Positions 16,068 through 23,431 of a stretch of 64,000 bases of DNA are shown piece by piece. The stretch comes from Promethearchaeia archaeon (GTDB taxonomy: Archaea; Asgardarchaeota; Lokiarchaeia; Sigyniarchaeales; SOKP01): assembly GCA_029856045.1 (NCBI GenBank), contig JAHQWG010000047.1:64001-128000 (forward strand). The letters are read 5' to 3'. The position numbers and the translations under genes are program-made. Position 1 is the first letter of the stretch; each line of letters begins with the position of its first letter. Under the pieces are notes generated by a model that was not told the origin of the DNA, made no database searches, and saw nothing but the letters and a program-made list of their open reading frames with translations.

Positions 16068-16661
16068 TTAGGACTTTGATTCTTCAGAAGGAACTCGATC
16101 AAATGCCCATTTTGCTTTGTCATCAAGACCCAAGGCTTGGTATGTTTTTCCTAAATAATAAAAACCTTGAGGATATTTAAAATCTTTTTTTACTAGTTTC
16201 ATTAAATGATTTACAGCTAATGCAAATTGTTTATCTAAATAAAACGCTTTTCCTATTAAAAATAAAACATCTAAATTTTGGCCGTTATCATCTATCAAAA
16301 CAAATAACTTTTCTAATGCCTTTTTAAACTCCTTTTGTTTGATTAATTTCCGTGGAAGTTCCAATTTTTCTAAAAGAATAATATCATCCGCAATACTACT
16401 AAAAACTTTCTCTAGTTCTATATCAACTTTTATCTGTTTTTCTTGCTCTTTTTGTGCTTCTATTTTATTAAAATAGTCTGTAAATTCTGAAATTGTATTT
16501 GAGTCATATTTTTCAGTGCATAATGGACAAACTTGAGAATGAACTAACCATTCTTCTAAACATTTTCTATGAACTTGATGTCCGTTTGGGCAAGTGTAGC
16601 TTTTAATGTTAGAACCTTCTTCTATTTCAATTTTTTCATGGCAAATTATACAAGTAGGCAT
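16068..16661 (-). CDS. RING-H2 zinc finger protein with TPR-like repeats
   Basis: 197 aa. Residues 4-48 fit the RING-H2 ligand pattern: C4-x2-C7, C24-x3-H28, H31-x2-C34 and C45-x2-C48. An acidic helical linker follows (about 55-110). The C-terminal part (about 115-192) has two or three TPR-like helical hairpins (for example LFLIGKAFYLDKQFALAV and FYYLGKTYQALGLDDKA). RING domains recruit E2 enzymes in ubiquitin transfer and TPRs bind partners, so a small E3 ligase is the leading idea. It is divergent from the Roadblock-GTPase gene (137 bp between starts) and 24 bp upstream of thiD-thiN. Confidence 0.85.
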   Translation of the reverse strand: MPTCIICHEKIEIEEGSNIKSYTCPNGHQVHRKCLEEWLVHSQVCPLCTEKYDSNTISEFTDYFNKIEAQKEQEKQIKVDIELEKVFSSIADDIILLEKLELPRKLIKQKEFKKALEKLFVLIDDNGQNLDVLFLIGKAFYLDKQFALAVNHLMKLVKKDFKYPQGFYYLGKTYQALGLDDKAKWAFDRVPSEESKS

Positions 16662-16798: not shown

Positions 16799-18346
16799 AT
16801 GTCAAAATTAGAATTATTTAATGGTTTGCTAAAAAATTTTATAAGTGTTGTACCTGATGTTGAAGCGGTAATTGTTTCTGACGATGAAGGGTTGATAATT
16901 GCTGCGAAATTAGATAAATCTCTTGAGGAAAAAACGGATTCTATATCTGTACTTTCTTCTCTTGTAAACCCAATTTTAGAAAGAATTAGGTACGAATTTT
17001 CTTTTAAAAAATTTGGAACTGCTAGTTTTGAAACTGAAGATTCTAGAATTTTATTTGTATCTGTAAAAGATAATGCTACTGTAAGTATTATATTAAACAC
17101 ACTTGCTTCTATTGATAAAACTGCTCCCTATGCCTACTTCTTAGCTGAAAAATGTGCCCAAATATTGACAGAGGATAACATAAATCGGATTCAGATATAT
17201 ATTCCAAATTTTGAATATGACGAAAGACAAGAGTTTGATAGGTTAAAAAATCAAATTTATCAAATGAGACTCGCCAAGGGACAATATAAATTTAAATTTA
17301 TTATTGTTGGTGACCACACGGTTGGTAAGACATCAATCGTAATGAGATTTGTTGAAAACAGATTTTCAACCGATTATCGTGCCACTATTGGTTTAAATAT
17401 TTTAACACATAACTATAAATTCTTAAATACAGTGATTAATTTAATGATTTGGGATATTGGAGCCCAAAAATTCTTCCAAAGAGTTCGAAAGACTTATTAT
17501 CAAGGAGCTCATTCAGCATTTTTAGTATTCGATCTTACAAATAGATCTTCTTTTGAGAATCTTGAAAATTGGTATAATGAATTAAAGGGTTTTATTAGTA
17601 TAGATATTCCGGTTGTTGTTGTGGGGAATAAAACCGATTTAAGTAAGGAAAGAAAAATATCTTATCAAGAGGGTGTTTCATTAGCAAATAAGCTAAGAGC
17701 TTCTTATATAGAAACTAGTGCAAAAACAGGGGAAAATGTAGAAGATGCGTTCTCTTTAATCTCCTATCACTATATAGTAAAATCACAACTTGAAGAGGAA
17801 AAAATAGTAAAAGAGAATCTAATTTCAGAAATTAATAGAATAATTGATGTTAAAGGTAAATTAATTTTATCATTTATTGGTTTAAATAAATACTGGAATC
17901 CTGCTCTACAATTGTTTACTGAATTTCGAGATTGGGGTGAAATGAAGACATTGAAAAATGAAGAATTAGAAAAAATTTATTCATTTAATGATAAAGTTAT
18001 TGTTCAAAATTATATAAATCATATTGGAGAGATTAGAGAATCTGATGGAGTTTTATTTATATTTGATGCTAGAAATAAAAAATCCATTGATTTAGAATGG
18101 CGAAATTTAGTAATTAACGGTTTAGATAAGATGAATGAAAATACGAGTGTATTAATTGGCTTAAGAACTTCCGAAGACCATACTCAAACAGGAGTTTGGT
18201 CTAGACTCATCGAAGAATTTAACTTAAATGAATATCTTGAAAAAAAGATGATTTCCATATTATTCTTTAAAATAACTACTGAATATCGATTGGAATTTTT
18301 GGATCAATTCAATACTTGGATTAGTACAATAAGCTCTTTCTTATAA
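16799..18346 (+). CDS. Roadblock/LC7 - Ras-like GTPase fusion with a C-terminal pseudo-GTPase-like domain
   Basis: 515 aa from the ATG at 16799 (a TTG 24 bases earlier is less likely). Residues 1 to about 118 are Roadblock/LC7 (VEAVIVSDDEGLIIAA). Residues about 160-330 are a Ras/Rab-like GTPase: G1 GDHTVGKT (171-178), switch I Thr in RATIG, G3 WDIGAQ, G4 NKTD (277-280), G5 ETSAKTG. In G3, the Gly of DxxG is Ala. Residues about 354-515 show Ras-like strand/helix order (LILSFIGL; DGVLFIFDARNKKS; SVLIGLRTS) but no P-loop and no NKxD, suggesting a degenerate second GTPase fold. No membrane anchor. Roadblock proteins regulate or scaffold small GTPases, so this may be a self-contained switch. Confidence 0.88.
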   Translation: MSKLELFNGLLKNFISVVPDVEAVIVSDDEGLIIAAKLDKSLEEKTDSISVLSSLVNPILERIRYEFSFKKFGTASFETEDSRILFVSVKDNATVSIILNTLASIDKTAPYAYFLAEKCAQILTEDNINRIQIYIPNFEYDERQEFDRLKNQIYQMRLAKGQYKFKFIIVGDHTVGKTSIVMRFVENRFSTDYRATIGLNILTHNYKFLNTVINLMIWDIGAQKFFQRVRKTYYQGAHSAFLVFDLTNRSSFENLENWYNELKGFISIDIPVVVVGNKTDLSKERKISYQEGVSLANKLRASYIETSAKTGENVEDAFSLISYHYIVKSQLEEEKIVKENLISEINRIIDVKGKLILSFIGLNKYWNPALQLFTEFRDWGEMKTLKNEELEKIYSFNDKVIVQNYINHIGEIRESDGVLFIFDARNKKSIDLEWRNLVINGLDKMNENTSVLIGLRTSEDHTQTGVWSRLIEEFNLNEYLEKKMISILFFKITTEYRLEFLDQFNTWISTISSFL

Positions 18347-22360: not shown

Positions 22361-22521
22361 TTACTTTTTCAACCTTTCTTTTAATTTATTAGTAATTAAA
22401 TTACCCATGTCAATTGTTGATAGAATTTTTAAGTTATCTGATTTAATGTCCATGGTTCTACCTTCACCTAAGGCCTGTTCTACACAATTCTCAATATCTT
22501 TACCTAAATCTTTCCGTTGAA
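22359..22521 (-). repeat. Direct repeat, copy 2 (leuB 3' end)
   Basis: This copy is the real 3' end of the dehydrogenase gene; copy 1 is at 19925-20087 in the same orientation. Confidence 0.85.
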
Positions 22522-23431
22522 AAGATTCTTCAACCATCAATTTTACACTTAATATTGTTCCCACAGGGTTTGCAATTCCTTGACCCGCAATATCGGGAGC
22601 AGCGCCATGAATTGGTTCGTACATTGATAGATTCCCAGGATTAATATTACCGCTCGGTGCCATGCCCAGACTTCCTAAAAGATAAGCAGCCTCGTCGCTA
22701 ATAATATCTCCAAATAAGTTACCAGTAACTACAGTTTGACATGTATATGGTTTGCGAATTATCCATTGACAAAACGAATCAATTAAGAAGTTCTCTTTAT
22801 CGATATTGGGATATTTCATACCTATTTCTTCAAATATCTTTCTCCACAATTGACTGCATGCTAAGACATTAGCTTTATCAACTGAAGTGATTTTTTTATG
22901 ATTCCTTTTTTTTGTATATTCAAAAGCATATTTGATAACTCTCTCGCATCCTTTACGGGTATAAAGCATAATATTTGTAGCAATTTCATCTCTTAAGATT
23001 CCCCCAATTTTTGCATATAAGCCCTCAGTATTCTCTCGAACGATAGTCATATCAATACCATCTCCTATATATTCATCTTTCAACGGACAACAATCTCTTA
23101 TCGTATCAAATAATTTAACAGGTCTTAGGTTTATATATAAATCAAAATTTTGTCTTATTTTTAAGATAGCAAGCTCAGCAACACCAGGTGGTAAATCAGG
23201 TAATCCTATCGCACCAAAAAGAATTGCATCCGACTTTTTTATAATATTTAACGATTTTTCTGGGAGGCTTTCCCCGTAAGTTTTATAGATAGATCCACCA
23301 GCAGGAGCCTCAATATATTCCATACTTAAATCTGAATACTCATTAATAATCTTAAGAATTTTTAATCCTTCATTTACCACTTCGGGACCTACTCCATCCC
23401 CCTTTATAATCGCAATTTTTTTTGTTTCCAT
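22361..23431 (-). CDS. Isopropylmalate/isocitrate dehydrogenase family enzyme
   Basis: 356 aa, full length for the beta-decarboxylating dehydrogenase family. Visible motifs: IIKGDGVGPEV at the N-terminus, LRPVKLF (substrate arginines), ENTEGLY, TSVDKANVL (catalytic Lys), GDIISDEAAYLLGSLGMAPSGN (metal-binding Asp) and EPIHGAAPDIAGQGIANP (cofactor loop). The HGAAPDI loop, without the charged NADP signature, favours NAD+. The family includes LeuB, tartrate and homoisocitrate dehydrogenases, and the substrate is not safe to call, so no symbol is given. No leucine genes are adjacent. A diverged copy of its 3' end lies at 19927-20133. Confidence 0.9.
   Translation of the reverse strand: METKKIAIIKGDGVGPEVVNEGLKILKIINEYSDLSMEYIEAPAGGSIYKTYGESLPEKSLNIIKKSDAILFGAIGLPDLPPGVAELAILKIRQNFDLYINLRPVKLFDTIRDCCPLKDEYIGDGIDMTIVRENTEGLYAKIGGILRDEIATNIMLYTRKGCERVIKYAFEYTKKRNHKKITSVDKANVLACSQLWRKIFEEIGMKYPNIDKENFLIDSFCQWIIRKPYTCQTVVTGNLFGDIISDEAAYLLGSLGMAPSGNINPGNLSMYEPIHGAAPDIAGQGIANPVGTILSVKLMVEESFQRKDLGKDIENCVEQALGEGRTMDIKSDNLKILSTIDMGNLITNKLKERLKK

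Follow-up and report, generated by a model that had tools for sequence, protein, structure and literature searches.

Proteins that join a roadblock domain to a small GTPase on one chain, the roadblock-GTPase (RB-GTPase) fusions, are known in Asgard archaea from an AlphaFold2 survey of strain MK-D1 (Tran et al., 2024; PMC10933270). The use of pseudo-GTPases and of G domains in pairs is regarded as a feature of eukaryotic signaling. Chains that carry both a GTPase and a pseudo-GTPase are known in eukaryotes, as exemplified by EhRabX3 and p190RhoGAP, and the pG1 and pG2 domains of p190RhoGAP, together with CENP-M, are classified as class i pseudo-GTPases (PMC5593906). Here we describe a conserved Lokiarchaeal three-domain protein, encoded by the open reading frame (ORF) at 16799-18346 (+) of a 64,000-nucleotide stretch of Lokiarchaeal DNA (contig JAHQWG010000047.1, positions 64,001 to 128,000; hereafter the window). 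In this protein a Roadblock/LC7 domain and a Rab-like GTPase are followed by a third domain that is best called a pseudo-GTPase. Domain matches, a fold model, and the loss of sequence motifs support the presence of all three on one chain, and thus confirm what an earlier reading of the bare sequence (the original prediction) had noticed.

Fold, motifs, and distribution of the three-domain protein

The ORF is intact from its ATG at 16799 to the TAA at 18344-18346 and encodes 515 amino acids (aa; 16799-18346, stop included) in an architecture that is conserved among relatives. There is also an in-frame TTG, 24 bp before the ATG, but the alignments of relatives begin at the ATG.

The third domain occupies residues 355-514 (17861-18340, +). 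Single-sequence searches of Pfam, NCBIfam, and the PDB with residues 340-515 alone gave nothing useful. An AlphaFold2 model of residues 334-515, built on a 72-sequence alignment, is confidently folded, with a mean predicted local distance difference test score (pLDDT) of 90.1 and a predicted template modeling score (pTM) of 0.88. Its elements follow the order beta1-alpha1-(extra strand)-beta2-beta3-beta4-alpha3-beta5-alpha4-beta6-alpha5, a Ras-like succession of strands and helices from which the switch II helix is missing. A Foldseek search of this model against the PDB returned 133 matches at E <= 0.001, of which the top 47 are without exception small GTPases (Arf, Sar, Rab, Rheb, EngB); GDP-bound Arf/Sar proteins head the list (E 6.6e-7, TM-score about 0.6). 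Independently of the model, the 72-sequence profile of the domain matches Rnd1/Rho6 (E 1.1e-4), then RhoE and Arf1, and these matches fall in the expected beta4-alpha3-beta5 register. Taken together, the model, the structural matches, and the profile matches support the pseudo-GTPase reading; the region is predicted to be neither disordered nor of a non-GTPase fold, the two outcomes that the original prediction had named as contrary to it. Weak Pfam matches of relatives to COBRA, dehydratase, Schlafen, and other models were set aside as chance, since they are scattered, below the cut-off, and differ from member to member. A viral fold library gave weak and mixed matches (Ras-like GTPases, terminases), and no viral origin is suggested.

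The nucleotide-binding motifs of this domain are gone. Among 90 aligned copies, not one third domain contains GxxxxGK[ST] or NKxD, which bears out the earlier claim that the roughly 160 C-terminal residues lack both and shows that neither an error of sequencing nor the decay of one gene is the cause. At the position of the lost P-loop, the window protein reads LNKYWNPALQ (residues 362-371; 17882-17911, +) and the family consensus TENxxWSPGLQ, with exactly WSPGLQ in 53 of the 90 copies; at that of the lost NKxD it reads GLRTS (residues 454-458; 18158-18172, +), where the family has the consensus GIRVS or close variants, and strand beta4 carries IFDAR. A conserved WSPGLQ/IFDAR/GIRVS/DWS set stands in place of the G motifs, its Pro, Trp, and D-A-R being invariant or nearly so (Pro368 is identical in all of 72 sequences). 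Median ratios of nonsynonymous to synonymous substitution (dN/dS) of 0.12 for the third domain, 0.088 for the GTPase, and 0.076 for the LC7 domain, calculated over sequence pairs that are not independent, indicate that the third domain is under purifying selection. Because the P-loop and NKxD are lost, it most likely binds no nucleotide, the trait of class i pseudo-GTPases.

The central domain (residues 162-322; 17282-17764, +) is a Rab-like GTPase. Pfam Ras (PF00071) covers residues 166-321 (E 1e-48), and the best Foldseek structures are Rab8, Rab3, Rab5, and a Thorarchaeota Rab (TM-score about 0.92). The G1 motif or P-loop, GDHTVGKT (residues 171-178; 17309-17332, +), conforms to GxxxxGK[ST] and the G4 motif, NKTD (residues 277-280; 17627-17638, +), to NKxD in 90/90 copies; the G5 motif is ETSAK (residues 305-309; 17711-17725, +). 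Since G1, G4, and G5 are intact, the domain is expected to bind GTP and GDP. The "full GTPase core" of the original prediction therefore stands for these three motifs, but not for switch II, where the G3 pattern DxxG(Q) calls for glycine at the position of Ras Gly60. The window protein has DIGAQ (residues 219-223; 17453-17467, +), with alanine at that position, as do 82/90 copies (D[IVL]GAQ); a few family members have Gly or Ser instead. Four two-domain LC7-Ras paralogs in the same genome retain Gly60 (DLAGQ or DIGGQ). The G60A substitution shifts H-Ras toward state 1 and drastically reduces its intrinsic GTPase activity (PMC4867591), and by this analogy the alanine may give the live GTPase an unusual switch behavior.

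The N-terminal LC7 domain of the original prediction (residues 1-124; 16799-17170, +) is likewise borne out. Its assignment joins a profile match with the element order alpha-beta-beta-alpha-beta-beta-beta(-alpha), and both were found: the Robl_LC7 profile (PF03259), which gives no match to the window protein itself, matches 11 of 30 close relatives (best E 6.4e-5), and the full-length model predicts H-E-E-H-E-E-E-H for the N-terminus. A PDB match of this domain to a Roadblock/LC7 protein is weak (E 0.12). A low-confidence linker (residues 139-156; 17213-17266, +; pLDDT < 50 in the full-length model) separates it from the GTPase.

A search for the same three-domain order, which the original prediction had proposed, uncovered a conserved family in Lokiarchaeota. 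Of 228 Asgard genomes, 62 contain the third domain as judged by its profile: 57 belong to the window's own family, of which 65 were sampled, and 5 to two sister families within the same order. Used by itself as a query, the C-terminal region gives matches at E <= 1 in 44/58 relatives; these are mostly strong and have 30-92% identity. Complete copies, that is, those not cut by a contig end, are single ORFs of usually 515-560 aa in the order LC7-Ras-third domain, which is kept in the sister families (f3 and f4) too; no complete family copy without the third domain was found. Most genomes of one Lokiarchaeal family carry in it a domain that is unannotated, Pfam and NCBIfam having no model for it. 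Two copies, mostly adjacent, occupy 33 of the 56 sampled loci that hold a full-length copy, a hint of Rag-like heterodimer working that is suggestive only.

Gene neighborhood and candidate partners

Divergently transcribed from the three-domain gene is one for a 197-aa protein with a RING finger (zf-RING_2) and tetratricopeptide repeats (TPRs; 16068-16661, -), which is a candidate partner. In the window it is followed by thiD-thiN, and an isocitrate/isopropylmalate-type dehydrogenase lies at 22361-23431. These genes form a conserved block: among 58 sampled family loci, a RING-TPR homolog occurs in 49, thiD-thiN in 42, and the dehydrogenase in 29. The fusion of a RING-H2-like finger to TPRs is conserved in most of the order and possibly represents an E3-type protein; one locus (L148) encodes a 699-aa protein with two RING-TPR units. 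The RING-TPR gene is also present in a related family (f2) that is without the pseudo-GTPase, and the adjacency of the two genes therefore arose later. Their joint absence from some genomes was rejected as independent evidence of a link, since thiD-thiN is missing or broken there as well.

No counterpart of the RING-TPR gene was found in one genome (G016), whose copies of the family are frames of 837 and 897 aa. Here (L051:388-2853, L103:42-2318) the examined copy ends in TPR repeats (822 aa), with the second, 897-aa frame nearby. Gene order and this one fusion suggest that a TPR protein is a likely partner, perhaps the adjacent RING-TPR protein. Such observations on neighborhoods are leads to partners, not proof.

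The sister families place the gene elsewhere. In f4 it resides within a mevalonate operon, between type 2 isopentenyl diphosphate (IPP) isomerase and GluRS; upstream are HMG-CoA reductase, a GHMP kinase, AA_kinase/isopentenyl phosphate kinase (IPK), and the isomerase (L155, L156, L157, and L158, from genomes G039, G043, G041, and G045), and downstream is GluRS, followed in L156 by an Rce1-like protease. In f3 (L154, genome G038), the pseudo-GTPase gene precedes one that resembles GluRS and one for a membrane protein with a zinc ribbon. The mevalonate operon was considered as the ancestral site and rejected because the IDI2 (type 2 isomerase) loci examined in other Asgard genomes are without such a gene; for the same reason the mevalonate link is limited to f4. 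IPK and the type 2 isomerase are fused into one ORF in several members of the window's family (L185:7457, 636 aa; L186:7772, 630 aa) but are separate genes in the window's genome (L170). The latter genome also encodes a small GTPase (G000 C27:291472-292005; L007) with a long Pro/Glu-rich tail, in a 484-residue open frame, that ends in a zinc-ribbon-like CxxC...CxxC motif.

Proposed working and alternative readings

We favor, with a probability of about 0.6, a Lokiarchaeal signaling protein that combines an LC7 domain, a nucleotide-binding Rab-like GTPase, and a non-binding pseudo-GTPase acting as a docking or regulatory surface, with a TPR protein as its likely partner. The LC7 domain would dimerize the chain with itself or, at two-copy loci, with the adjacent paralog. 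The GTPase would bind GTP or GDP and, given alanine in place of Gly60, might switch in an unusual manner. The pseudo-GTPase, tethered to it by a helix, would offer a permanent surface for protein docking or regulation, in which the WSPGLQ/IFDAR/GIRVS/DWS set may have taken over the vanished nucleotide pocket. A likely partner would be a TPR protein, perhaps the RING-TPR neighbor. What the protein would deliver is the assembly of a complex under the control of bound nucleotide, with no enzymatic work by the third domain.

Several observations weigh against this proposal. The TM-scores of the third domain with known structures are only 0.4-0.6. No profile-profile alignment was obtained between the pseudo-domain and either the live GTPase of the family or any of 22 GTPases encoded in the window's genome, and we accordingly do not propose that it arose by internal duplication; a hidden Markov model search of non-family ORFs ranked two Asgard GTPases best (E about 0.04-0.06), at the level of a reversed-profile control, and these matches were therefore not used. 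The full-length model (pLDDT 80) has a pTM of 0.59, too low to fix the placement of the three domains, LC7 included. On the side of the partner, the RING-TPR adjacency is confounded by the larger block with thiD-thiN and the isocitrate-type dehydrogenase as well as by whole-locus loss, and the TPR fusion comes from a single genome.

The main alternative holds that the pseudo-GTPase is an intramolecular regulator, like a guanine nucleotide exchange factor (GEF), a GTPase-activating protein (GAP), a guanine nucleotide dissociation inhibitor (GDI), or a pseudo-partner, with the two G domains in contact and each determining the state of the other, in the manner of the Rag pair or the second G domain of EhRabX3. 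It is a tentative but serious possibility. In the full-length model, one continuous helix (residues 314-352; 17738-17854, +; block pLDDT 85-94) is predicted to run from alpha5 of the GTPase straight into beta1 of the pseudo-GTPase, and the spacing between the two G domains is nearly constant throughout the family. An internal regulator would moreover be useful to a GTPase with alanine at Gly60, considering the effect of G60A in H-Ras (PMC4867591), and the two-domain paralogs, which have no third domain to regulate them, keep the glycine. Against it speak the low pTM of the full-length model, which does not fix the domain arrangement, and the results on Rag identity, which gave that identity no support. 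A bolder extension of the docking proposal, which we consider speculative and somewhat unlikely, envisages a homodimer, or a heterodimer of tandem paralogs, that is held together by the roadblock domains and forms a rigid unit with four G domains, two of them live and two dead. Such a unit would be an Asgard-specific counterpart of Rag-Ragulator in which the dead domain replaces the nucleotide state of a partner and brings in machinery of the TPR/RING (ubiquitin-type) or lipid-synthesis kind.

Other alternatives concern the nature of the third domain itself. That it can still bind some ligand, be it a nucleotide or not, as a class ii pseudo-GTPase or through a new pocket, is suggested by conservation of the rebuilt pocket (WSPGLQ, GIRVS) beyond the needs of a pure spacer, but is improbable with the phosphate-binding P-loop and the base-binding NKxD in 0/90 copies. 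It would be more surprising still if the domain belonged to another Rossmann-like alpha/beta fold of the flavodoxin or receiver type. G domains are resembled by both folds, a flavodoxin appears at Foldseek rank 48 (E 9.2e-5), and comparing profiles in pairs gave no alignment to Asgard GTPases; nevertheless, all better-ranked structures are small GTPases, antiparallel strands precede beta4 in the model as does the beta2-beta3 hairpin of G domains, and the sequence profile picks Rho and Arf GTPases rather than flavodoxins. A decaying, functionless remnant is already disfavored and hardly credible: the dN/dS of the domain is slightly above that of the other two, but its median is still only about 0.12, its motifs are conserved between taxonomic families, and it is intact in every complete copy.

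Comparison with known systems

The closest described proteins, the Asgard RB-GTPases, share the succession of roadblock and GTPase on one chain, and the window's genome itself encodes four such two-domain proteins. They differ in that the main text of the survey describes no third pseudo-GTPase domain, only unspecified "?" domains, and does not contain the word "pseudo" (PMC10933270). The open-access literature, outside which most subscription papers lie, yielded no account of the three-domain combination or of any pseudo-GTPase from Asgard archaea. If our reading is correct, Asgard archaea, whose Lokiarchaeota are relatives of the ancestors of complex cells, would make use of dead G domains in regulation, and the three-domain protein would provide a compact, expressible object for the direct study of nucleotide-gated assembly.

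The original prediction saw in the chain a scaffold, an active GTPase, and a pseudo-GTPase forming an internal Rag- or MglA/MglB-like unit; the three domains have held up, and neither likeness has gained support. Rag/Gtr GTPases with Ragulator/LAMTOR also join roadblock domains to small GTPases and have two cooperating G domains. However, they are two chains whose G domains both bind nucleotide, and the Rag roadblock is C-terminal, at the end opposite to that of the window protein, whose live domain is Rab-like. In bacterial polarity control, the roadblock GAP MglB similarly works with the small GTPase MglA, but these are separate proteins without a pseudo-GTPase, whereas the GTPase here is fused and matches Rab structures, not MglA. 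Among the Pfam matches of the window protein up to E 10, none is to Gtr1_RagA or other Rag/Gtr models, or to MglA.

The eukaryotic parallels concern the dead domain. In p190RhoGAP, a metazoan GAP protein with other domains, the pseudo-GTPases share the chain with an N-terminal GTPase to which they have low identity (PMC5593906). The homology of these domains and of CENP-M to GTPases is detectable by profiles at high significance, whereas here it is detected weakly. EhRabX3 of Entamoeba is a eukaryotic single protein without a roadblock domain; it comes near to the Lokiarchaeal arrangement in having two Ras-superfamily G domains per chain, one of them without multiple G motifs (cited in PMC5593906 and PMC8514894).
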